Of a DNA stretch of 64,000 nucleotides, positions 8,693 to 22,271 are shown piece after piece (position 1 is the first letter of the stretch; the number at the start of each line of letters is the position of its first letter). A model generated the notes under the pieces. The model did not search any database. It was given only the letters and a program-made list of their open reading frames with translations, and was not told the DNA's origin. The stretch covers positions 1 through 64,000 of the forward strand of contig JALHOE010000002.1 in assembly GCA_022843175.1 (NCBI GenBank), in the 5' to 3' direction. The position numbers and the translations under genes are program-made. The DNA comes from Deltaproteobacteria bacterium (GTDB lineage: Bacteria > Myxococcota_A > Polyangia > Polyangiales > JADJMO01).

Positions 8693-8858
8693 GGCGCTCG
8701 CTGACGCGCGCGCCTATTCGGTGGTGATCCCACAGGCGCGCGCGTGAGCGAGCGCCTTCATCCCACAGGCGCGCGCGTGAGCGAGCGCCTTCATCCCACA
8801 GGCGCGCGCGTGAGCGAGCGCCTTCATCCCACAGGCGCGCGCGTGAGCGAGCGCCTAT
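8693..8858. repeat. REP-like type B cluster: one inverted copy plus four 33-bp tandem copies
   Basis: A 22-base element at 8693-8714 (core CGCTCGCTGACGCGCG) is followed by four head-to-tail 33-bp units beginning at 8727, 8760, 8793 and 8826. Each unit contains the reverse complement of the element (core GCGCGCGTGAGCGAGCGC). The first element can therefore pair with any of the four. The array fills the gap between convergent genes ending at 8685 and 8865, so a transcript-end or stability role is plausible. Copies of the same core recur at 24816-24972. Confidence 0.85.
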
Positions 8859-8864
8859 GGCCAG

Positions 8865-9437
8865 CTACGCCAGCTTGCGTAGGTAGTGGAACTTGGGATC
8901 GGTGAGATCCTCGTCGGTGAGTCCCCAGTCGTCGTCGCGCGGGATGAGGTAGAGCGCGTCGCCCTTCACGCTCGCGAAGTTGATGTGGGGGAGCCCCTCG
9001 ATGATGTGTTGGAACACATCGCGCCGCCACAGGTGCTCCTGGGGAATCGTGCACCGTTGGGCGAGCATTCGCTCGGTGGGGGTGCCCTGGATGAGGAGCA
9101 CGGCGACGGTGAACGTGAGGTAGCGCGGCTCGCCGCGGTACGGGTCGAACACGCCGGAGGGCGCCTTGCGCGAGCCCTCTTCGGTGAACATGCCGTTGCA
9201 CCACATTTGAAAGTCGCTCTGCGCCTTCTGGTCGTCGTCGAAGAAGTCCCAGCAGCCCATCACGATGTTGGGGACGGCGGGGACGAGCAGGTTGGTGATC
9301 TGGCGGTAGACCGCCCACTTCTGCTGGAACCCGAGGGCCGACGGATGCGCCTGCAGCACCGAGCGCAGCCCGGTGTGCAGCGCGTCGCCCGCCTGGAACG
9401 GCACGCACACCTCGAGCGCGAGGATCGAGTGAGACAT
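8865..9437 (-). CDS. Conserved-looking protein of unknown function (last gene of the CULT/AspH operon)
   Basis: The 190-residue product starts at the ATG at 9437, overlapping the stop of the upstream gene (TGATG). It has no signal peptide or membrane segment and contains several Trp, Phe and acidic residues (for example M-G-C-W-D-F-F-D-D-D and a C-terminal D-D-D-W-G). I do not recognise a family. Its job must be judged from context: it is translationally coupled to a membrane protein and lies in the same transcript as the AspH-like and cereblon-like genes. Confidence 0.7.
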   Translation of the reverse strand: MSHSILALEVCVPFQAGDALHTGLRSVLQAHPSALGFQQKWAVYRQITNLLVPAVPNIVMGCWDFFDDDQKAQSDFQMWCNGMFTEEGSRKAPSGVFDPYRGEPRYLTFTVAVLLIQGTPTERMLAQRCTIPQEHLWRRDVFQHIIEGLPHINFASVKGDALYLIPRDDDWGLTDEDLTDPKFHYLRKLA

Positions 9438-10828
9438 CAGCCGAACCCCCAGCCGCCGCCGCCGCCGCCGGTCGGTTTGACGGGCGCGCGGTTCCAGCTG
9501 CCGTTGCGGTGGTGACGCCAGCCGAGGAGGGCGCCGGTGCCGACCGCGATCATCACCGGCACGGTGCCGAAGTTCGCCGGACGCGGCTTGAGCGTGGCGG
9601 TGCCCTTGCCCGTGGAGTGCGGCGTCGTGCGCGCGGAGGGACGCCAGTCGCGCGCGCCGGCGAGGACGTTCCCCGGCGACTTCGGCTTCGGCGTGGGGAG
9701 CTTCCACGGATAGTCGACGAGGAGCTGCAGATCGCTGTCCGGGCTGCCCCCGTAGCAGTGCGGCTCGATGGTGACGTCGTCGGTGGGCTGCGCGACGTCC
9801 TTGCCCTTGCACGGCTTGAACGCGCCGGCGCCGATCATGCGCACGTCGATGCCCGCCGCGCTCCAGGCGACGACGTCGTCGTTGACGTCGTCCATCTCCT
9901 TGGTGTCCGACTCGAACGGCGTGACGTACATGACGCGCTTGATGCCGAGCGTGCTGAGGTTCTGCGCGCTCGGGAGCTTGGCGACCCAGCGGTTGTCGAA
10001 CTGCTTGGTCTCGTCGACGTAGGGCGCGAGGCGGTCGCGGTCGAGCACGAAGGCCGGCGGCTTGCCGCCCGCGGCTGCGCGGTTCTTGCGGAACAACGGC
10101 TGGTAGTAGAGCGCCGCGGCGAGGGTGCGGTGCGCCGGGACGACGCCGCGTGGGTGCGGCCAGTTGTCGAAGGCGAACACGACGTCGAACAACCCGTACA
10201 TGCCGGCGGCGAACGCCACCGCCTCGGGGCCCTGGAGATCGACGACGACGGCGACGTCGTCGACCGCGGCGAGCTGCATCGCGAGCGCGCGGCCGCGGGC
10301 GAAGGCGGTGTCCATAAACGTGTTATGGATCGGCGCCAGCACGTCCTTGAGGGGCTTGAACGCCTCCGCCGCGTCGGCCTCGGCCGTCTTGGTGGGCATG
10401 GCCGTGGGGGCCTGGAAGAGCGTGGGCGACCAGTACGGCCGGTATTTGGCGGTGTCCGGCTGCATGTCGTCGGCGAGCCGGGGGATGAGCGCGCTGTCGA
10501 ACTGCACGCTGGAGGCGCCGTCGAAGGTGAGCGCCTCGCTGCGGGAGCCGAAGTTCCAGCCGTACTCCTTCTGGATGTCGAGGGTGGGCTTGGGCTGGGG
10601 GAGGGGCGCGGGGCCCGAGGAGGGGCCGTCGTCGTCGCCGCTCGTTGCGAGCGCGAGGAAGAGGCCGACGCCCGCGAGCGACGCGCCGACGATGAGCACC
10701 GTGCGCATCGCGCTCCGCCGCGTGGGCTGGTCCTCGGTGGCGGCGGCGAGCTGTTGCTGCCACCAGCGAGCGCCGATGAGGCCCGGCTTGTCGACGGTGC
10801 CGTCTCTCTGGAAGGGATCTTCGCTCAT
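9437..10828 (-). CDS. Membrane-anchored protein of unknown function with large extracytoplasmic domain
   Basis: The 463-residue product has an about 40-residue cytoplasmic N-terminus, one hydrophobic helix (T-V-L-I-V-G-A-S-L-A-G-V-G-L-F-L-A-L-A-T, about residues 43-62), a Pro-rich linker and a long soluble region. The region has two cysteines far apart and alpha/beta-looking strands such as V-A-V-V-V-D-L-Q-G and I-K-R-V-M-Y-V-T-P. A hydrophobic stretch (G-T-V-P-V-M-I-A-V-G-T-G-A) near residue 427 may be a second membrane contact, and the tail is G-rich (six Gly then W-G-F-G). No family recognised. It directly abuts the AspH-like gene without a spare base. Confidence 0.75.
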   Translation of the reverse strand: MSEDPFQRDGTVDKPGLIGARWWQQQLAAATEDQPTRRSAMRTVLIVGASLAGVGLFLALATSGDDDGPSSGPAPLPQPKPTLDIQKEYGWNFGSRSEALTFDGASSVQFDSALIPRLADDMQPDTAKYRPYWSPTLFQAPTAMPTKTAEADAAEAFKPLKDVLAPIHNTFMDTAFARGRALAMQLAAVDDVAVVVDLQGPEAVAFAAGMYGLFDVVFAFDNWPHPRGVVPAHRTLAAALYYQPLFRKNRAAAGGKPPAFVLDRDRLAPYVDETKQFDNRWVAKLPSAQNLSTLGIKRVMYVTPFESDTKEMDDVNDDVVAWSAAGIDVRMIGAGAFKPCKGKDVAQPTDDVTIEPHCYGGSPDSDLQLLVDYPWKLPTPKPKSPGNVLAGARDWRPSARTTPHSTGKGTATLKPRPANFGTVPVMIAVGTGALLGWRHHRNGSWNRAPVKPTGGGGGGWGFG

Positions 10829-11623
10829 CTACTGGAGGGCTTCGAGCAGCTCTGGGCGGAGATCGCCATCGATGCGAATGGAGTACCGGAAGAATGGGTC
10901 GGGGTCGACCCCGTGATAGTCGCCGTCGTTGAACCAGTAGGCGCGGCCCTCGACCGGGTGCTTGGTGCGGGTGTCCTCGTCCCACAGGAAGAGCCGCTTG
11001 TTGCCGGCCGGCGCGATGGTGATGAACGGCGCCGGCGCCTCGGTCGCGGGATCGGCGTCCCGGTGGACGGTGCCGAAGTCGTTGGCGTGGAGTCCCATGA
11101 TGTTGCAGCGCCCCACCGCGACGAACGGGAGCGACTCGGCGAACGCGATCGTCTTGGGGAAGAAGGCTCGCGCGGTGCGGCTCCAGACCTTGCCCTCGGG
11201 GTCGGCTTTGTCTCCCCACCAGCGGTTGGGCATCAGCTCGACGTACACCTTCCACGGGAAATACACGCCGAATCGCGCCTCGAGCCAGAGCATCTGCCGG
11301 CGCGAGAGCGGCACGTCGCGCTCCTCTCCGAAGGTGAGCTCGTGACGGCGCGCGGGATCGATCCCGCGCGGATCGTCCGACAGCTCGCGAAACGTGGCGA
11401 ACTCGGCGTCGGTCATCGCGGCGATCACCTCGCCGTAGTCGACCCACGGCTCGCCCTCGAGCGACGGCGGCACGATGCCCATCGAGCGGTGCGAGCCGCC
11501 GGTGTAGTCGACCGGGATCTTGGTGAGCGCGAGGCAGATCTCCTCGTGGACGGCCGGGAGCGCGCTCAGATCGAGGTGCTCCTCGAGGCGTAGGTAGGGC
11601 TTGCCGAAGATGCCGGTGATCAT
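10829..11623 (-). CDS. AspH-like 2OG-Fe(II)-type oxygenase, paralogue 1
   Basis: The 264-residue product ends with the aspartyl/asparaginyl beta-hydroxylase (cupin) pattern: H187-R-D189, then H237 in D-Y-H-G-V, then R-Y-S-I-R with an Arg suited to bind 2-oxoglutarate. The N-terminal half (F-G-K-P-Y, Y-T-G-G, F-P-W-K-V-Y) is shared only with the second copy at 20500-21306. The ATG at 11623 overlaps the TGA of the CULT gene, so the two proteins are probably made together. It should hydroxylate a protein, peptide or small amide; the substrate is not evident. Confidence 0.75.
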   Translation of the reverse strand: MITGIFGKPYLRLEEHLDLSALPAVHEEICLALTKIPVDYTGGSHRSMGIVPPSLEGEPWVDYGEVIAAMTDAEFATFRELSDDPRGIDPARRHELTFGEERDVPLSRRQMLWLEARFGVYFPWKVYVELMPNRWWGDKADPEGKVWSRTARAFFPKTIAFAESLPFVAVGRCNIMGLHANDFGTVHRDADPATEAPAPFITIAPAGNKRLFLWDEDTRTKHPVEGRAYWFNDGDYHGVDPDPFFRYSIRIDGDLRPELLEALQ

Positions 11624-11979
11624 TCCGCGATCCGGTCGGTGATCAGGCCATGAAACACCGAGGCGCCCTCGAAGCGCCAGCCGAGATGTGCGTCGCAGCG
11701 ACCGCACAGCACCAGCTGCCAGGTATGGCCGGCAAACCAGGTGAAGAAGGACTCGCGCGGGCCGAGCGGACGCAGGCCGGGAGCCTCGGCGAAGCAGCGC
11801 AGCGTGAAGGTCAGGCCGCTCGGGTTGGTGAGGCGGTGGGTGTGGGCGCCCTCGATCTCGAGGCGCTGATCGGGGGTGGTGATCGGGTGGCGGCAGGCGG
11901 CGCAGATCACCGCGCGGTCGAGGGCGGGGGCGTCGAGGTTCTCCCGCTCCCTCTCCTTCTCCGCTTCGCCCTTCGCCAT
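11620..11979 (-). CDS. Bacterial cereblon-like single CULT-domain protein
   Basis: The 119-residue product is almost entirely a CULT domain. Zinc ligands are C26-x2-C29 and C92-x2-C95; the ligand cage is W81, W87 and W101. The Trp spacing (6 and 14) equals that of the Magnetospirillum CULT protein MsCI4 (Trp79, 85, 99), and flanking motifs F-T-W-F, L-C-G-x-C, H-L-G-W and the tail G-L-I-T-D-R also fit. In animals this fold in cereblon binds cyclic imides such as C-terminal aminoglutarimide and thalidomide. The bacterial role is unknown. It is first in an operon with an AspH-like oxygenase and two proteins of unknown type; the start is 18 bases from that of the divergent DUF350 gene. Confidence 0.92.
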   Translation of the reverse strand: MAKGEAEKERERENLDAPALDRAVICAACRHPITTPDQRLEIEGAHTHRLTNPSGLTFTLRCFAEAPGLRPLGPRESFFTWFAGHTWQLVLCGRCDAHLGWRFEGASVFHGLITDRIAE

Positions 11980-11997
11980 CGTGATAGCTTCGCACGC

Positions 11998-12855
11998 ATG
12001 GAGCTCAAGCCGCTCTACGCGCTGTTGTTCGGTGGGGCGATGACCATCGTCCTCCTACTCCTGCTGCGGATCGGCCAACGCATCTTCGTGCCGGGCCACA
12101 CCGTCGGCGGGGATCTCGCCAAGGGCAACAGCGCCCGGCGCCTGCTCCAGGTCGGGCAGGTGCTCGCGGTGTTCCTCATCGCCGCCGCGGCCGTGAAGAA
12201 CTGCGTCGAGGGTCAGGATCTCAAGCGCGACATCGTGTGGGCGCTGCTGATGGGGGCGCTCGGACTCATGCTCCTCGTCGTGAGCGGGCGCGCCGGGCTG
12301 ATGCTGCTCCTGCGCTCGCGGCTCCCGGCCGAGATCGATCGCGGCAACATCGCCGCCGGTGTGGCGGCCGGCGCGCACTACGTCGCTACCGGCATCATCA
12401 CGTCGCGCGCGGTCGCCGGAAACGACCTCCCGAGCCTCGGGCTCTCGCTGGTGTTCTTCCTGCTCGCCCAGCTCACGCTCCACGTGTTCGTCTCGCTGTT
12501 CCGCTTCCTCACCGTCTACGACGACGCAGAGCAGATCCAGGGCGAGAACCTCGCCGCGGCGATCAGCTACGGCGGCGTCGCCATCTCGATCGCGATCCTC
12601 ATCGCGCGCGCGCTCGAGGGTGACTTCGTGAGCTGGGCGATCTCGCTCAAGGGCTACGGCGTCGCGCTGCTGTTCGCCTTCGCGCTGTGGCCGGTCCGCC
12701 AGCTCCTCGTGCAGACGCTGCTCCTCGGGTATCCGTTCACGCTCCGCGGCGGCAAGCTCGACGACGGCATCTCCGCCGAGCGCAACGAGGGCATGGGCAT
12801 CCTCGAAGCGGTCTCGTACCTCGCGACGGCGCTCTCCATCGCTCGTCTCGCATGA
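11998..12855 (+). CDS. DUF350 membrane protein (tandem DUF350)
   Basis: The 285-residue product has about eight hydrophobic helices in two similar halves, each of about four, as in DUF350/YjfL proteins carrying a repeat. Charged residues are few and lie in loops. An upstream in-frame extension to 11650 would read through the CULT gene, so the ATG at 11998 is taken as start. The stop overlaps the next ATG (ATGA), coupling it to a glutathionylspermidine-synthase-like ATP-grasp enzyme, the same pairing as YjfL and YjfC in enterobacteria. The function is unknown; an envelope or ion-related role is inferred. Confidence 0.88.
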   Translation: MELKPLYALLFGGAMTIVLLLLLRIGQRIFVPGHTVGGDLAKGNSARRLLQVGQVLAVFLIAAAAVKNCVEGQDLKRDIVWALLMGALGLMLLVVSGRAGLMLLLRSRLPAEIDRGNIAAGVAAGAHYVATGIITSRAVAGNDLPSLGLSLVFFLLAQLTLHVFVSLFRFLTVYDDAEQIQGENLAAAISYGGVAISIAILIARALEGDFVSWAISLKGYGVALLFAFALWPVRQLLVQTLLLGYPFTLRGGKLDDGISAERNEGMGILEAVSYLATALSIARLA

Positions 12856-14096
12856 ACGTCGCGTCGATCGAGGAATACGATCGCTTCGCCAAGCAGATCG
12901 TCGCGGGCGGCGTGCTCAGCGATCCGTGGATCGGCGGGCAGCCTCGCTTTCGCCGCGCGCCGGTCTTCGTGCCCCGGGCGCTCGCGCAGCAGATGGCTCG
13001 CGCCGCCGAGGAGGTCGCCGTCGTGTACGACGAGGCGTGCCGCATCGTCGACGGCGAGCAGGAGCTGCTCGACGAGTTCTTCATGCTGACGCCGTTCCAG
13101 AAGGCGATGTGGATCGCGTCGGCGCCGCTCTGGCACGGCATCGCCCGCGCCGACGTCTTCGTCACCCGCGACGGCCTGCAGATCGCCGAGCTCAACTGCG
13201 ACACGCCCACCGGCGAGGCCGAGGCGGTGGAGCTCAACGCGCTCGTGGCCGGCGAGCACTCCCTCGCGCACGACCCCAATCGGTTCCTCGAGTCGCGCAT
13301 CTGCGCCATGGTCGAGACGATGCGCAAGGAGCTCGCCAGCGACGGACCGAAGGCGCTCGCCATCGTCTACCCCACCGAGTTCACCGAGGACCTGTCGCTG
13401 GTCCGGCTCTACCGCAAGTGGTTCGAGTCGCGCGGGTGGTCGGTCGTCCTCGGCTCGCCCTACAACCTCGACGGCGGCGAGGACGGCGTGCGACTGTTCG
13501 ACACCGAGGTCTCGGTGGTGATGCGCCACTACAAGACCGACTGGTGGGGCGAGCGCGCGTCGGCGTGGAGCGACGACCCGATCCTCGACTCGCGCCCGCT
13601 CGAGGACGAGATCGCGACGCTCTTCGCCGGCATGCTCCACAAGCGCTGCGCCGTCATCAACCCGTTCGGCGCGGTGCTCCCGCAGAACAAGCGAATGATG
13701 GCCTTCATGTGGGAGCACATTCACCGCTTCTCGCCGCGCGCGCAGAAGGTGATCGAGCAGTACGTGCCGGTGACCTCGCGCCTCGAGATCGTCCACGAGG
13801 AGCAGCTGCTCGTGGAGAAGGCGCAGTGGGTCATCAAGAGCGACTACGGCGCGGAGGGCGACGAGGTCATCGTCGGCAAGCACGCGACGGACGAGGAGTG
13901 GGCCGCGACGCTCAAATTCGCGCGGCCCGGCCGCTGGATCGCCCAGCGGTATTTCGAGGCCGAGGAGGACGATCTCGGCGAGGCCGTGAACTACGGCGTG
14001 TATCTCGTGGCGGGCGAGGCGTCCGGCCTGTACGCGCGGGTGCAGGCCGGGCCCACCGACGATCGGGCGCTGAGCGCGCCCACGTTGATCACGTGA
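12852..14096 (+). CDS. Glutathionylspermidine synthase-like ATP-grasp ligase
   Basis: The 414-residue product matches the ATP-grasp half of glutathionylspermidine synthetase/YjfC. Visible motifs are I-A-E-L-N-C-D-T-P-T-G-E (substrate and Mg contact), V-I-K-S-D-Y-G-A-E-G (ATP-grasp glycine-rich strand) and P-G-R-W-I-A-Q-R-Y-F, then N-Y-G-V-Y-L-V near the C-terminus. The amidase domain of E. coli GspS is absent. The family forms amide bonds using ATP; whether the acceptor is a polyamine, a peptide or a protein cannot be told. It overlaps the DUF350 gene by four bases. Confidence 0.88.
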   Translation: MNVASIEEYDRFAKQIVAGGVLSDPWIGGQPRFRRAPVFVPRALAQQMARAAEEVAVVYDEACRIVDGEQELLDEFFMLTPFQKAMWIASAPLWHGIARADVFVTRDGLQIAELNCDTPTGEAEAVELNALVAGEHSLAHDPNRFLESRICAMVETMRKELASDGPKALAIVYPTEFTEDLSLVRLYRKWFESRGWSVVLGSPYNLDGGEDGVRLFDTEVSVVMRHYKTDWWGERASAWSDDPILDSRPLEDEIATLFAGMLHKRCAVINPFGAVLPQNKRMMAFMWEHIHRFSPRAQKVIEQYVPVTSRLEIVHEEQLLVEKAQWVIKSDYGAEGDEVIVGKHATDEEWAATLKFARPGRWIAQRYFEAEEDDLGEAVNYGVYLVAGEASGLYARVQAGPTDDRALSAPTLIT

Positions 14097-14884: not shown

Positions 14885-16123
14885 ATGGTTCGCTCGCTGG
14901 CCGCAGTGCTCGTCTCGTCGTTCGTCGTGGGTCTCACCGGCTGCGCCATCGAGGGCGATCCCGGCGTCGACCTCGAGCGCGAGGCCGAGGGCATCACCAG
15001 CTGCACGATCAAGACAGCGACCGGCTATCGGTCCGGCACCGCGTTCACGATCAAGGTGGTGACCGTCGACGGCAAGCCAGTCGAGCTCGCGACCGCGATG
15101 GCGTACGTGCGCATGCAGGCCGCGGCGAAGAAGGCCGGCGTCGGCGTGTGGATCGTGAGCGGCTTCCGGACGATGGCGGAGCAGAAGTATCTCTACAACT
15201 GCTACCTGACGAAGTCGTGCAACGGCGGCAACCTCGCCGCGCGGCCGGGGTACTCGAACCACCAGAGCGGTCACGCGCTCGACCTCAACACCTCGGCGTC
15301 CGGCGTGTACTCGTGGCTGTCGAAGCACGGTGCGAGCTACGGCTTCAAGCGCACCGTTCCGAGCGAGGCGTGGCACTGGGAGTACTGGGGCCCGATGACG
15401 GCCGGCCCGTGCACCGACAAGGACGGCGACGGGATCCTCAACGAGAAGGACAACTGCCCGAGCAACGCGAACAAGACCCAGGACGACCTCGACAAGGACG
15501 GCAAGGGCGACGTCTGCGACGGCGACGTCGACGGCGACGGCGTCGTGAACGAGAAGGACAACTGCCCGCGCGAGAAGAACGCGACGCAGGTCGACACCGA
15601 CAAGGACGGCAAGGGCGACGCCTGCGATCTCGACGACGACAAGGACGGGATCGTCGACACCAAGGACAACTGCAAGCTGGTGGCGAACGCCGATCAGGCC
15701 GACCTCGACAAGGACGGCAAGGGCGACGCCTGCGACACCGATCGCGACGGCGACGGCATCGAGAACAGCAAGGACAACTGCCCCGACGACAAGAACGCCG
15801 ATCAGGTCGACAGCGACGCCGACGGCAAGGGCGACGCGTGCGACGAGACCGCGCCGCCGCCGCCGTCCGAGGAGCCGCCGTCCGATACGCCCGGCGCGCC
15901 GCCGGTCGACGACTGCCAGACGGGCGACTGCGGCGACAAGACGACCGAAGCGCCCGGCGAGACCGCCGACCTCGGCGACGGGCACGATCACGCCGATCCG
16001 CCCGCGGACACCGCGATGAGCGGCGGCTGCGCGCTCGGCGGGAACGGCTCTTCTTCGGCTGGCGCGGCGTTGCTGGCGCTCGCGCTGATGATGCTGACGC
16101 GCCGTGCTACGAAGAGGGCGTGA
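14885..16123 (+). CDS. VanY-type D-Ala-D-Ala carboxypeptidase with thrombospondin type 3 repeats and MYXO-CTERM-like tail
   Basis: The 412-residue product has a signal peptide with lipobox L-T-G-C near residue 20. An M15 peptidase domain follows, with zinc motifs [10 protein letters not shown] and the C-terminal W-H-W-E. From about residue 175, at least four calcium-binding thrombospondin type 3 repeats (D-x-D-G-D-G, D-N-C-P) follow, then a Pro/Ala/Asp linker. The C-terminus is G-G-C then a hydrophobic helix and T-R-R, the MYXO-CTERM sorting layout. It should trim peptidoglycan stem peptides at the cell surface. It is coupled by four bases to the serine acetyltransferase gene, a pairing without an obvious reason. 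Confidence 0.9.
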
Positions 16124-17204: not shown

Positions 17205-18134
17205 TTATTCGCCGCAGTGGTCGTCTTTGTAGTCGGCCGGCGGATCGTCGGTGCGGAAGCCCGGGTCCCAGGTCCACTTGGTGGACCACGACGTGGGCGT
17301 GCCGCTGCGGCCGATGTCCATGTGGAAGTGGTTGCGGTGCGCCGAGTTGTAGTTTGGCGTGAGCGCGATGCCGAACACCTTGGTGGACGTGGCGTCGCAG
17401 GCGAGCGTGTAGAGCTCCTTGCTGATGCCGGTCTGCGCGGCGAGGCCGCCGGTGCAGGTGGGCAGCGTCGAGATCACCCAGTGCCGCGCGTCGTTGATGT
17501 CGTAGCGGGTGCCGTCTGCTTTGTAGAGGTAGCGGACGTCGACGGCGCGGCCCCACGAGTGATTGGAGTAGCCGCTCGAGCCGCACACGGGCTCGGGGTC
17601 GTCGATGCCTCGGCAGAAGTTGGTGGTGCTCCACGAACAGCAGCAGCGGTAGCAATACGAGCCGAGCGTGCCGACCCGGACGAAGCCCTTGGACTTGAGC
17701 AGGTCGGCGAACTTCGACAGCGTGAGCGCGAACTCGCACGCGACCGGATCGCCCATCGGCGTGGTGCCGGTGCCGCTCGCGAAGAGGACGCCGTTGATCG
17801 GGCCCGTGATGTTGACCGCGTCGACGACGCCGCGCGCGGCCGTGACCTTGTAGGAGATGCCCTTGGCGGTGAGCTGCGAGCGGCAGGGGCTGCCGGCGTC
17901 GACCACCGCGGTGTCCGTCTTTGGTGGGGCGGTGTCGGCGGGCGCGTCGTTCTCGGTCGCGTCGGCGGGCGCGTCGGTGAGGGTGACGTCCTCGGGGGGC
18001 GTGGCGGCGTCGGCCGGCGAGATCTCGGCGCCGGCGTCCTGCTCCTCGGTGGGGAGCGGCGTGGCGGCGATATCGCCCTCGCTGCTGCCGCAGGCGGCGA
18101 GGGAGACGGTCAGCGTGAGGAGCAGCGCGCGCAC
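17205..18134 (-). CDS. Extensin-like / M15-fold lipoprotein
   Basis: The 309-residue product starts at a GTG and carries a lipobox (L-A-A-C, residue about 15), a Pro/Asp/Ala linker to about residue 80, and a C-terminal domain of the Extensin-like_C type, related to D-Ala-D-Ala peptidases. Metal motifs are S-N-H-S-W-G-R-A-V-D and N-H-F-H-M-D near the C-terminus. Numerous cysteines (Y-C-Y-R-C-C-C-S) suggest disulfide bonding outside the cytoplasm. Peptidoglycan cleavage is inferred from fold and motifs. Confidence 0.85.
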   Translation of the reverse strand: MRALLLTLTVSLAACGSSEGDIAATPLPTEEQDAGAEISPADAATPPEDVTLTDAPADATENDAPADTAPPKTDTAVVDAGSPCRSQLTAKGISYKVTAARGVVDAVNITGPINGVLFASGTGTTPMGDPVACEFALTLSKFADLLKSKGFVRVGTLGSYCYRCCCSWSTTNFCRGIDDPEPVCGSSGYSNHSWGRAVDVRYLYKADGTRYDINDARHWVISTLPTCTGGLAAQTGISKELYTLACDATSTKVFGIALTPNYNSAHRNHFHMDIGRSGTPTSWSTKWTWDPGFRTDDPPADYKDDHCGE

Positions 18135-18194: not shown

Positions 18195-20333
18195 ATGGAT
18201 CGAGCGATGCGTTGGGGATGCATTTGTTTGGTTTGGCTCGCGGGGTGCGGTCACCCCGCCGAGACACACCCGGATGCGTCGGTGCCCGATGTGGGCGACG
18301 CGGGCGACGCCGAGCCCCCGCCGTTCGACGAGGGGGCGATCGATCCCGCGAAGCCCCCGCTGATCCCGGTCGGGTTCGACGCGTTCCGGATGTGGGACCG
18401 GTGGGCACACCTCCGCATCGGGCAGCGCACGTACATGCGGAGCACGTTCGATCGCACCGGTCACAACCGCGCCGCCGACGCCGCCCACTACCTCCGCAAG
18501 CGCGCAGACGCCTACGTTCCGCTCGACGTGGCAGGCAGCGGCGTGCTCGCGTTCGTCCGCACCAATCATTGGCACGGCTCGCCGTGGCACTACACGGCCG
18601 ACGGCAGGGACACGATCGTCGCCGAGACGACCACCGCCGATCCGACCAAGCCGATCACCGGCTCCACGTTCATCCCGCAAGAGGTCTTCCCCGAGCCCCT
18701 GGCCTTCACCTGGTCCACGACGAAGGGGGCCGATCTGAGCTGGGTGCCGGTGCCGTTCACCCAGTCGTTCGAGCTCGGGTACGAGCGCGCCTTCTACGGC
18801 ACGGGTTACTATATATTTAACCTATACGATTCGAGCAGCGCGCTCTCGCGCCCGATCGAGACGTGGGACGTGAAGGCGCCGCCGGAGGACGTGCTCAACC
18901 TGTTGCGGCACGTCCGCGGCGACCTCGGGCAACCGGTCGCGCTCGAGGGCGCGCGGACGATCCGTACGCTCCGGCTCACCCTCCCGCGGGACCGCGCGGC
19001 GCTCGGACACGAGCGAATCCGGATCACGTGGGACGACCGCGCGGCGCCCTCGGTCGACGCGCCGATCGCGCTGTTCTTCGGCGCCGGTACGCTGTTCAAC
19101 CGCGACGGCCGCGAGTTCCTCGTCCGCGCGTTCCCCTCGACCATCCGCTACGCCGGCGACTCGATCGTCCTCACGTCGTCGTTCCCGATGCCGTTCTTCT
19201 CGCGCGCGCGGATCGAGGTGCCGGACGGGGTGAAGCTCGAGGTGCTGAGCGAGCCGCTCGGGGCGCAGCGGCACGTGGGGTACTTTCACGCGACCTACCG
19301 CGACCACCCCGTGCCGACCCCGAGCCAGGACCTGGTGCTGCTCGACACCAAGGGCGTCGAGGGGAGCGACGCGTGGTGCGGTCACTTCGTGGGCACGTCG
19401 TTTCAGTTCTCGGACGCCGCCGATCTCACGACGCTCGAGGGCGATCCGCGCTTCTTCTTCGACGACAGCCAGACGCCGCAGGCGATGGGCACCGGCACCG
19501 AGGAGTGGGCGGGCGGCGGCGATTACTGGGGCGGCCAGACCATGACGTTGCCGTTCGCGGGACACCCCACGGGCGCGCCCTCGCCGGACAAGGCGCTCGA
19601 GGCCGAGGACAAGATCGAGTCCGCCTATCGGTTCCTCCTCTCCGACCTCATGCCGTTCGGTCGCAACGCGCTCATCCGCCTCGAGCACGGCGCCGAGAAC
19701 CAGGCGACGCAGCACTACAAGACGGTGACGTTCTGGTACGGCCGGCCGCGCGCGTGCCTCGTGCAGACCGACGCGCTCCACGTGGGCGACGCGGCCGACG
19801 AGGCGAAGCACGCGTGGACCGCCGAGGGCGCCTCGGAGCCCGAGACGCTCGAGAGCCGCTACGAGTGGGGCATCGACTGGGACCGCTTCAAGATGCTCTC
19901 CGTGTATCCGCCGTCGAGCGACACCGGCCGGCGGATGACGGGACCGAGCGAGATGACGCTGCAGATCGACCCGAACAACTTCGGCGTCGTGCTGCGGCGG
20001 AAGTTCGACCAGTCGTTCGTCGACCAGCGCGCGGAGGTGTGGATCGACGGCGAGCGGGCCGGCGTGTGGTACTTCGCGGGCTCGAACACGGCGCTCTTCG
20101 GGTGGACGCCGGGGACCACCGAGACGTTCAACGCGCCGCCCGAGAAGATCACGAGCAACCGCCGGTGGCGCGAGGAGGAGTTCATCGTCCCGCGCAGGCT
20201 CACCCGGGGGAAGAAGGAGCTCCGCGTGCGCATCGTGCCGATCGGCTCGCCCCAGCCGCTCCTTCCGGGCGAGCCGACACCGGAGCGGGTGTGGAGCGCG
20301 TATCGATACTGGGCGTACTCGTGGGTGCTGTAG
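18195..20333 (+). CDS. GH172 (DUF2961) family glycosidase, lipoprotein
   Basis: The 712-residue product has a lipobox (W-L-A-G-C) at about residue 18 and an Asp-rich linker. The rest matches the DUF2961 family, now glycoside hydrolase family 172, whose members act on fructofuranosyl or arabinofuranosyl linkages. The typical core is F-F-F-D-D-S then G-T-G-T-E-E-W with a G-G-D-Y-W-G-G loop (about residues 430-455); the acidic residues there are the likely catalytic ones. A second ATG at 18207 could also serve. Codons at about 18807-18830 include a short AT-rich run (Y-Y-I-F-N-L-Y), unlike the rest. It is monocistronic, ending in paired REP hairpins. Confidence 0.85.
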   Translation: MDRAMRWGCICLVWLAGCGHPAETHPDASVPDVGDAGDAEPPPFDEGAIDPAKPPLIPVGFDAFRMWDRWAHLRIGQRTYMRSTFDRTGHNRAADAAHYLRKRADAYVPLDVAGSGVLAFVRTNHWHGSPWHYTADGRDTIVAETTTADPTKPITGSTFIPQEVFPEPLAFTWSTTKGADLSWVPVPFTQSFELGYERAFYGTGYYIFNLYDSSSALSRPIETWDVKAPPEDVLNLLRHVRGDLGQPVALEGARTIRTLRLTLPRDRAALGHERIRITWDDRAAPSVDAPIALFFGAGTLFNRDGREFLVRAFPSTIRYAGDSIVLTSSFPMPFFSRARIEVPDGVKLEVLSEPLGAQRHVGYFHATYRDHPVPTPSQDLVLLDTKGVEGSDAWCGHFVGTSFQFSDAADLTTLEGDPRFFFDDSQTPQAMGTGTEEWAGGGDYWGGQTMTLPFAGHPTGAPSPDKALEAEDKIESAYRFLLSDLMPFGRNALIRLEHGAENQATQHYKTVTFWYGRPRACLVQTDALHVGDAADEAKHAWTAEGASEPETLESRYEWGIDWDRFKMLSVYPPSSDTGRRMTGPSEMTLQIDPNNFGVVLRRKFDQSFVDQRAEVWIDGERAGVWYFAGSNTALFGWTPGTTETFNAPPEKITSNRRWREEEFIVPRRLTRGKKELRVRIVPIGSPQPLLPGEPTPERVWSAYRYWAYSWVL

Positions 20334-20499: not shown

Positions 20500-21306
20500 T
20501 TAGCGGGCGATTGCGCGGAGGAAGGCGGGGTCGAAGACGCCGTCTACGCGGATTGAATAACGAAAATATGGGTCGGGCTCGACACCGTGCCAGTCCATGT
20601 CGTTGAACCAGTAGATCCGCGAGCCGACGACGAGCGGCTCGCCCTCGGGGCCGGTGCGGAGCGCGAAGCGCTTGTCGCCGCGCGGGCAGAACGAGATCGA
20701 CTGCGCGATCGACTCCGAGCGGCCGGGCTCGCTGTCGCGGTGGTAGGGGGCGTGGTCGTGCGCCTCGAGCCCGAAGAGCACCACCCGGCCGATCTCCACG
20801 AAGGGGAGCGACTCGATGAAGCCGACCGTCTGCGGGAAGAGCTCGCGCGCCTCTTCGGAGAACGACTTGCCCTCGCCGGAGTGCTTGTCCTCCCAGCGGT
20901 CGTTCTCGAGGAGGTGGTAGCAGATCTTCCACGGAAAATAGACGTGGTGGCGGAGCTTGAGGAGCTCGAGCTGGCCGCGGGTGAAGGGGTGGTCGGTCTC
21001 GTCGCCGAAGCGGTAGGAGCGCCACTCGGCCGGGTCGAACACGCTCGGATCTTCGGCGAGCGAGACGAAGTCCTGCCACTCCTCGAACGTCATCGCCTCG
21101 ATGGCGTGCATCGCGTCGCGGTAGCCGTCGTCGACCTGCCAGGGCGCCACGACGCCCATCCACTTGAGCGTCCCGCCCGTGTACGAGGGCTCGACCCGGG
21201 CGAGGCCGAGGGTGAGCTCCCGGTCGAGCGCGGGGAACACGCTCACGTCGAAGAACGGCTCGAGGTTGACGTAGGGCCGGCCGAACAGGCCGCAGAGGCG
21301 GCTCAC
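20500..21306 (-). CDS. AspH-like 2OG-Fe(II)-type oxygenase, paralogue 2
   Basis: The 268-residue product is clearly homologous along its whole length to the protein at 10829-11623: F-G-R-P-Y near the start, Y-T-G-G, F-P-W-K, E-S-L-P-F-V-x-x-G-R, and the metal/cosubstrate set H189-R-D191, H in D-W-H-G-V-E-P-D-P, and R-Y-S-I-R-V-D-G. The GTG at 21306 overlaps the stop of the Rieske gene (GTGA). It probably hydroxylates a substrate related to, or made by, the Rieske enzyme; this is inference from coupling. Confidence 0.75.
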   Translation of the reverse strand: MSRLCGLFGRPYVNLEPFFDVSVFPALDRELTLGLARVEPSYTGGTLKWMGVVAPWQVDDGYRDAMHAIEAMTFEEWQDFVSLAEDPSVFDPAEWRSYRFGDETDHPFTRGQLELLKLRHHVYFPWKICYHLLENDRWEDKHSGEGKSFSEEARELFPQTVGFIESLPFVEIGRVVLFGLEAHDHAPYHRDSEPGRSESIAQSISFCPRGDKRFALRTGPEGEPLVVGSRIYWFNDMDWHGVEPDPYFRYSIRVDGVFDPAFLRAIAR

Positions 21307-22271
21307 GAGTACGCCCGCCGGATCATGTCGTCGAACGCGATCATGCCGTCCTCGCTCTCTGCGTAGCACAGCGGCGTCCACACGCCCTCGCGGAGGCCCT
21401 CCATCTGCCGTTCGCAGATCGCGCGGTCCTCGTCGTTGGTCTTCTGCCAGAACTCGACGACGTCGGGGTGGTCGAGGTGCGCGACCGCGGGATGGAACAG
21501 GATCGAGAAGTCGACGCGCGTGCGGTCGGGGGCGAGCGGCGAGAGCCGATACGAGAGCACGTAGTCGGGCTGCACGCTGAACAGCGAGGTGGGAAACAGG
21601 AGCGCGTCGTGCACCACGCCCGGCTCGGCGATGAGCGGGCGGCCGTGACGCTGCCCGTCGCGCGAGACCGTCTCGGCGAGGAGCTCCATGCGGCCGCCGA
21701 GCCACGGCCCGCCGGTGACGATCGAGGACGAGCGCGCGAAGGGCGTGTGCCGCTCGAGCCCCGGGTGCACGCTCGGAAAGTGGTGCGACTCCTGGAAGTT
21801 CTCCACCAGGAGCTTCCAGTTGGCGGAGACCTCCCAGCGCGCGCGATGGCCGGCGCGCAGCATCGCCAGATCGGCGGTGATGAAATGGGGCGCGGGCAGG
21901 GGCGCGGCGCGGCGCGACACGAAGACGAAGCCGCCCCACGTGGTGACGTGCGCGCGCACCAGGCCGTCGCACTCCTTGCCGCGGCCGGAGAGGTCGTAGG
22001 ACCAGCCGTGATACGGGCACACCAGGCGGGCGACGCGGCCGGACTCGCCGTCGACGATGGTCGAGGCGCGGTGGCGACAGACGTCGAACATCGCGCGGAG
22101 CTCGAGATCCTCGCCGCGGACGACGATGAGGCGGCCGGGGCCGCGAATCCAGGCGCCGGGGAGGGGGACGTCCTCGACGCGGCCGATGCAGGTCCAGTGG
22201 TCCGCGATGAGCTTTTGATCTGCCGCGTGCGATGCGTCGGACAGATAGACCTCGGCGGGGAGGGGGAGCAT
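21303..22271 (-). CDS. Rieske non-haem iron oxygenase
   Basis: The 322-residue product has a Rieske [2Fe-2S] motif C65-x-H67 and C85-x2-H88, then a catalytic domain with E161-S-H-H164-x4-H169 supplying the mononuclear iron ligands in the N-W-K-L-L-V-E-N-F-Q context of the ring-hydroxylating / choline monooxygenase class. No ferredoxin reductase is adjacent. The substrate is unknown. The ATG at 22271 is only nine bases from the ATG of the divergent lactonase gene. Its stop overlaps the AspH-like gene, so an oxygenase pair is made from one transcript. Confidence 0.88.
   Translation of the reverse strand: MLPLPAEVYLSDASHAADQKLIADHWTCIGRVEDVPLPGAWIRGPGRLIVVRGEDLELRAMFDVCRHRASTIVDGESGRVARLVCPYHGWSYDLSGRGKECDGLVRAHVTTWGGFVFVSRRAAPLPAPHFITADLAMLRAGHRARWEVSANWKLLVENFQESHHFPSVHPGLERHTPFARSSSIVTGGPWLGGRMELLAETVSRDGQRHGRPLIAEPGVVHDALLFPTSLFSVQPDYVLSYRLSPLAPDRTRVDFSILFHPAVAHLDHPDVVEFWQKTNDEDRAICERQMEGLREGVWTPLCYAESEDGMIAFDDMIRRAYS

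Follow-up and report, generated by a model that had tools for sequence, protein, structure and literature searches.

A stretch of 64,000 nucleotides from a deltaproteobacterial assembly (contig JALHOE010000002.1; hereafter the window) carries one copy of an eight-gene set that, as comparison of gene neighborhoods shows within the limits of a pattern-based scan, is seen only in myxobacteria and related metagenome-assembled genomes. The set, which has apparently not been described before, encodes a Rieske oxygenase, the paralogous iron oxygenases P2a (P0002) and P2b, an ATP-grasp ligase (P0006), a DUF350 membrane protein (P0005), a membrane-anchored protein (P0003), P0004 and a further oxygenase-like protein (P0007). 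A preliminary description of the window had proposed a six-gene pathway within positions 8865–14096 in which a cereblon-type CULT protein (P0001) takes part. The six genes were found where it placed them, but the extent of the system changed: CULT falls outside the set, which in addition holds P0007, P2b and the Rieske oxygenase from beyond those positions. By analogy with DUF350-DUF1190-YjfC systems, we tentatively propose, at somewhat less than an even chance, that the set is a variant of them in which the ligase amidates the glycine-ending tail of P0003 and the oxygenases modify the tail or the conjugate.

Conservation of the eight genes in myxobacteria

Using the P2a family, we fetched 76 loci from named genomes. 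All come from Myxococcota or the former deltaproteobacterial class, except for a few metagenome-assembled genomes with another phylum label or none (L115, L125, L167). The genes other than CULT are conserved at about 30–70% identity in other genera and are therefore real and maintained as neighbors. Their usual order in relatives is Rieske > P2b > < ligase < DUF350 P2a > P0003 > P0004 > < P0007. P0004 occurs in 41 of the 76 loci, always adjoining P0003 or a contig edge; P2b is likewise present in 41, often straight after the Rieske gene, which is found in 31 and mostly adjoins P2b. P0007 accompanies 25 loci, usually at the same end, and DUF350 is present in 40 of the 43 loci that have the ligase.

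The suggestion that the facing operons function together is borne out by the loci that contain P0003, since the ligase is present in 33 of these 43, in opposite orientation to P0003 in 25 and co-directional with it in 8. Seven of the co-directional loci, including two from Archangium and one from Hyalangium, have the order P2a > DUF350 > ligase > P0003 > P0004; at the eighth (L141), no DUF350 was seen. Two of the 10 P0003 loci without a ligase (L108, L144) stop at a contig edge and have DUF350, and most of the others are matched by a second locus, with ligase and DUF350, in the same assembly (for example L114/L161, L127/L155, L110/L152, L111/L162, L113/L164, L107/L159). Whether the two operons separate in close relatives, the refuting condition named in the preliminary description, has a mixed answer: they are physically apart in some genomes, but such genomes usually retain both.

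Among 56 relatives, a number that includes the window's own genome, the 11 genomes with the ligase are also the 11 with P0004, although shared ancestry inflates any significance of this match. Because one genome (G054) keeps ligase-DUF350 and P0003-P0004 and lacks P2a, the distribution suggests that ligase, DUF350, P0003 and P0004 form the core and that the oxygenases were added. No further recurrent gene, whether biosynthetic, for export or of another kind, surrounds the set in 12 representative loci. Three close relatives only (L104, L106 and L108) have a large membrane protein without a Pfam match downstream of P0004 (about 14269–16623 in L106). It looks similar to the multi-transmembrane half of membrane spermidine synthases, which would fit a link to polyamines. 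With this survey, three protein families that have no Pfam entry (P2, P0003 and P0004) are defined.

CULT as an extra gene

Judged by its sequence, P0001 is a genuine cereblon-type CULT domain, as the preliminary description had it. Its best match in the PDB is MsCI4 chain 4v32, a CULT structure from Magnetospirillum (phmmer, 2.7e-24), and it matches animal cereblon CULT domains at about 1e-7. Alignment shows that the zinc-binding Cys pairs C26/C29 and C92/C95 and the pocket residues W81, W87 and W101 are retained. In its stand-alone domain, Cys pairs and three pocket Trp residues, P0001 is like the bacterial CULT proteins MGR_0879/MsCI4 of Magnetospirillum (Lupas et al., 2015, PMC4287342); it differs from MsCI4 in having Phe103 in place of the usual Tyr and in sitting inside a foreign operon. 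Residue 103 is Tyr in most MsCI4 structures, but Phe in chain 4v32.

Two observations would fit a six-gene amide-conjugate pathway in which CULT acts alongside the hydroxylase and the ligase by recognizing imide or amide ends: the pocket residues are intact, and the CULT and P2a genes overlap by ATGA, so that the two are probably co-translated in the window genome. However, CULT is present at none of the 76 loci. It occurs in 8 of the 56 relatives (one of them a weak match) and a close ligase homolog in 11, and the two coincide in a single genome, that of the window, where 1.6 would be expected, which shows no association. A neighborhood search from the other side gave the same answer, as genes of the set are absent from the 15–18 kb loci around six of the relatives' CULT genes and, in a phylum-wide sample of CULT loci, from flanks of about 1.5 kb. 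CULT genes elsewhere have no specific recurrent partner, their only recurrent neighbor being a generic short-chain-dehydrogenase-like protein. Because CULT is missing from all loci of the set, has no genes of the set beside it in other genomes, and shares one genome with the ligase where 1.6 were expected, we exclude it from the system. On this synteny and co-occurrence, the six-gene pathway as a general system is largely refuted, and we consider it very improbable.

The likeliest explanation for the arrangement in the window is that CULT was inserted as an additional gene between DUF350 and P2a; the window's genus has only one other genome in the set compared. The divergent starts of CULT (11979, minus strand) and DUF350 (11998, plus strand) are indeed separated by 18 bases, as first described, but this spacing is peculiar to the window genome: of 26 relatives that have the divergent layout and lack CULT, 24 show 35–222 bases between the starts of DUF350 and P2a. 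For the study of CULT itself this is a useful negative, as genome neighborhood gives no clue here to what bacterial cereblon-like proteins do.

Ligase, tail protein and oxygenases

The assignments of the plus-strand pair hold. P0005 matches DUF350 (PF03994, 9.4e-33) with two repeats, and P0006 matches GSP_synth (PF03738, 7e-15) with 55.5 bits, compared to a gathering cut-off of 29.3. Residues D101, E113 and N115 and the motif DTPTG are invariant in 11 P0006 sequences from close relatives and align with the E-NADTPT region of YjfC and YgiC. Given what is known of GspS, D101, E113 and N115 are candidate Mg-binding residues. The idea of a pathway for making or removing amide conjugates survives in altered form: the ATP-grasp enzyme is likely to form amides, but nothing supports imide recognition by CULT within such a pathway.

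P0003 consists of a twin-Arg motif followed by a hydrophobic helix, an alpha/beta domain at residues ~72–435, and a disordered C-terminal tail. In its AlphaFold model (predicted local distance difference test score, pLDDT, 84), the tail is unordered. A Pfam search returned no family for P0003, and its fold has no clear PDB match (best Z 4.6). The tails are nonetheless conserved. A motif of the R-x-G-S-W-N-R type (GSWNR...GG) is present in 30 of 32 sequences, and the tails end in Gly in 28 and in Gly-Gly in 25 of the 32, with the consensus RSGSWNRSSGGWGG. A protein end that is conserved yet unordered may often mark a recognition site. For its neighbor P0004, Pfam likewise returned no family. 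For DUF1517 (PF07466), a candidate family, the Pfam model does not match P0004, and hhalign gives a probability of 2.4% (E 0.019).

P0002 was initially described as AspH, a name that holds for the fold but not for the family. Neither P0002 nor any of 19 relatives matched a Pfam oxygenase model at E<=1, PF05118 included, and membership in the Asp/Asn beta-hydroxylase family was rejected. The AlphaFold model (pLDDT 94) shows the double-stranded beta-helix of a 2-oxoglutarate (2OG)-Fe(II) oxygenase and aligns with 2OG hydroxylases including PHD2 (Foldseek E 6e-6, VIA Z ~12.5), and H187, D189, H237 and R250 are invariant in a 20-member alignment of the family, which fits an HxD...H motif with a distal Arg. 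On the strength of the model, P0002 is placed in the 2OG-Fe(II) oxygenase superfamily. P2b is a paralog with 44% identity, and the Rieske oxygenase matches PF00848 (4e-33) and PF00355 (1.4e-12). Pfam matches of P0007 to 2OG families are weak (1.7e-4, under the cut-off); HxD...H...R is invariant across the window protein and 6 relatives. Separately, P2a homologs at six loci (L119, L131, L133, L134, L136, L140) have no other genes of the set nearby, and the P2a family therefore also has other contexts.

Among known systems, E. coli yjfL-yjfM-yjfC, which encodes a DUF350 protein, a DUF1190 protein and a peptide-spermidine ligase, comes closest. E. coli YjfC and YgiC are annotated as peptide-spermidine ligases and are encoded directly after DUF1190 genes; in the yjf operon, DUF350 precedes DUF1190. 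Other papers cite Pederick et al. 2023 for the peptide-spermidine ligase activity of YjfC and YgiC. The yjfIJKLMC and ygiBC loci share with our set a ligase of the GSP_synth type and a neighboring anchored or lipoprotein-like protein with a Gly-rich C-terminal tail, and yjf also shares DUF350. The myxobacterial tail protein, in contrast, is a larger alpha/beta protein unrelated to the DUF1190 proteins YjfM and YgiB, and the myxobacterial set adds the two paralogous 2OG enzymes, a further 2OG enzyme, the Rieske oxygenase and P0004. Among 10 plasmid loci, DUF1190 lies beside or near the ligase in 7. A Roseomonas plasmid (NZ_CP061179.1; L226 2709–5059) has a tandem pair of GSP_synth-type ligase genes, followed by DUF350 and DUF1190. 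On an Arthrobacter plasmid (NZ_CP104273.1; L225 3263–3769), a 168-amino-acid protein encoded just before a GSP_synth-type ligase is annotated as "tRNA-dihydrouridine synthase" and ends in VTRGGFGGGAKGGGGHGG; it looks like a DUF1190-type tail protein, and its annotation is probably wrong.

If P0003 is the substrate, how might the set work? At the expense of ATP, the YjfC-type ligase would activate the carboxylate of the Gly that ends the exposed P0003 tail and would couple the activated tail with spermidine or another amine. Hydroxylation of the tail or the attached amine could be the task of the 2OG enzymes and the Rieske oxygenase, with DUF350 as the membrane partner. P0003 would be exported or anchored after modification, so that the modified tail is carried at the cell envelope. 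We infer both the ligase reaction and the substrate role of P0003. In favor of such a role, P0003 is the sole protein of the set with a layout comparable to that of DUF1190-type tail proteins, and a protein with a Gly-rich tail adjoins the ligase in E. coli and in most plasmid loci examined, Arthrobacter included. For DUF350 proteins and YjfC/YgiC ligases, both widespread, we found no settled physiological peptide substrate in the literature. P0003, unrelated to DUF1190, is the second companion of the ligase to have a conserved tail that ends in Gly, and this points toward the C-terminal tail as the substrate. The idea becomes testable in culturable myxobacteria such as Sorangium, Archangium and Hyalangium.

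Several observations weigh against tail amidation. P0006 is only 18–19% identical to E. coli YjfC and YgiC, and the window's own P0003 tail ends in GFG, not GG. DUF1190 (PF06693) has no match in 11 P0003 members and none in 282 Myxococcota genomes. Homology between the P0003 tail and the DUF1190 tail seemed convincing by eye (compare E. coli YjfM, SRGGYGRSSSARGHWGG) but did not stand up to shuffling: as sets, the two tail profiles score no better against each other, in either direction, than against shuffled tails. The parallel is therefore one of layout and composition, an analogy and not homology, and by these searches P0003 is not a DUF1190 member. In addition, with a signal-anchor the tail would lie outside the cell and away from ATP, so that any modification would have to precede export.

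It is also possible, if unlikely, that the ligase and iron oxygenases build a free amide metabolite, with P0003, P0004 and DUF350 as membrane, transport or carrier partners. The available part of a study of fungal E-64 biosynthesis (cp1/cp2 clusters; PMC12568646) describes an Fe(II)/2OG oxygenase followed by an ATP-grasp enzyme that structurally neighbors YgiC and YjfC, a pairing of 2OG oxygenase and stand-alone amide ligase that our set shares, and four oxygenases seem more than modification of a tail would need. However, E-64 is made by a small-molecule cluster with a second amide-forming enzyme, and neither DUF350 nor a tail protein is described in that part of the study. The absence of other recurrent biosynthetic or export genes at the representative loci argues against such a metabolite, which would moreover leave the conserved disordered tail of P0003 without a role.

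Another possibility, which we consider distinctly unlikely, is an envelope-stress module related to the PspA-linked DUF350/ATP-grasp systems, in which the ligase makes membrane-protecting polyamine conjugates and the oxygenases serve as oxygen sensors or adjust the conjugate. As far as the accessible text of Ravi et al. (2024, PMC11237479) goes, DUF350, a glutathionylspermidine-synthase-like ligase, a DUF1190 lipoprotein and DUF2491 occur beside PspA, and a DUF350/ligase/DUF1190-type arrangement is found in the plasmid loci. These phage shock protein-associated polyamine/ATP-grasp operons share with our set the YjfL-family DUF350 protein and an ATP-grasp peptide ligase related to glutathionylspermidine synthetase; they carry PspA/CesT-Tir, DUF1190, DUF2491 or band-7 partners, whereas the iron oxygenases present in our set go unmentioned in that text. 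PspA, YjfI and DUF2491 were not seen as recurrent neighbors at the 12 myxobacterial loci, although no direct search of the genome with a PspA profile was made, and the lack of DUF1190 across Myxococcota also counts against this explanation.

The data do not separate tail amidation from a small-molecule pathway or an envelope-stress module, but tail amidation is favored because the P0003 tail is conserved. A more specific form of the proposal, which we regard as rather doubtful, is that the set is an undescribed myxobacterial tail-modification system in which the YjfC-type ligase amidates the GSWNR...GG tails of a new family of membrane-anchored proteins, hydroxyl groups come from dedicated 2OG enzymes and a Rieske oxygenase that act on the tail or the attached amine, and the decorated ribosomal product is kept at the envelope.

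Features of the window

In the window, the set is split: P2b and the Rieske gene (20509–22271) lie ~6.4 kb from the ligase, with other genes between. A DUF2961 protein is encoded among the genes that separate the two halves (14885–16123, 17205–18134 and 18402–20330). The other two genes of this group presumably encode secreted, D-Ala-D-Ala carboxypeptidase-like proteins, going by their motifs.

Table 1. Genes of the set, the CULT gene and the intergenic gap in the window
Feature	Positions	Strand	Basis or remark
P0007, 2OG-Fe(II) oxygenase-like protein, 239 amino acids	7966–8685	+	convergent with the minus-strand operon; weak Pfam 2OG matches
P0004, 190-amino-acid protein, no Pfam family	8865–9437	-	relatives 31–55% identical
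P0003, membrane-anchored protein	9437–10828	-	no Pfam family; AlphaFold model
P0002 (P2a), predicted 2OG-Fe(II) oxygenase fold, "AspH-like"	10829–11623	-	AlphaFold model, Foldseek, alignment
P0001, CULT (cereblon-type) domain protein, 119 amino acids; extra gene, outside the conserved set	11620–11979	-	phmmer
18-base gap between two divergent starts	11980–11997		sequence
P0005, DUF350 (YjfL-type) membrane protein, two repeats	11998–12855	+	PF03994
P0006, ATP-grasp ligase, glutathionylspermidine-synthase (YjfC/YgiC) type	12852–14096	+	PF03738
P2b, P2a paralog, 2OG-Fe(II) oxygenase fold by homology	20509–21297	-	44% identical to P2a
Rieske non-heme iron oxygenase, 322 amino acids	21303–22271	-	PF00848, PF00355

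Within the operons the genes are tightly joined. An ATGA overlap also links the DUF350 and ligase genes, and the P2a/P0003 junction (TAG directly followed by ATG) and the P0003/P0004 junction (TGATG) leave no gaps. Between the convergent ends of P0007 and P0004, at 8727–8856, lies a perfect 33-bp tandem repeat of 3.9 copies (ATCCCACAGGCGCGCGCGTGAGCGAGCGCCTTC).

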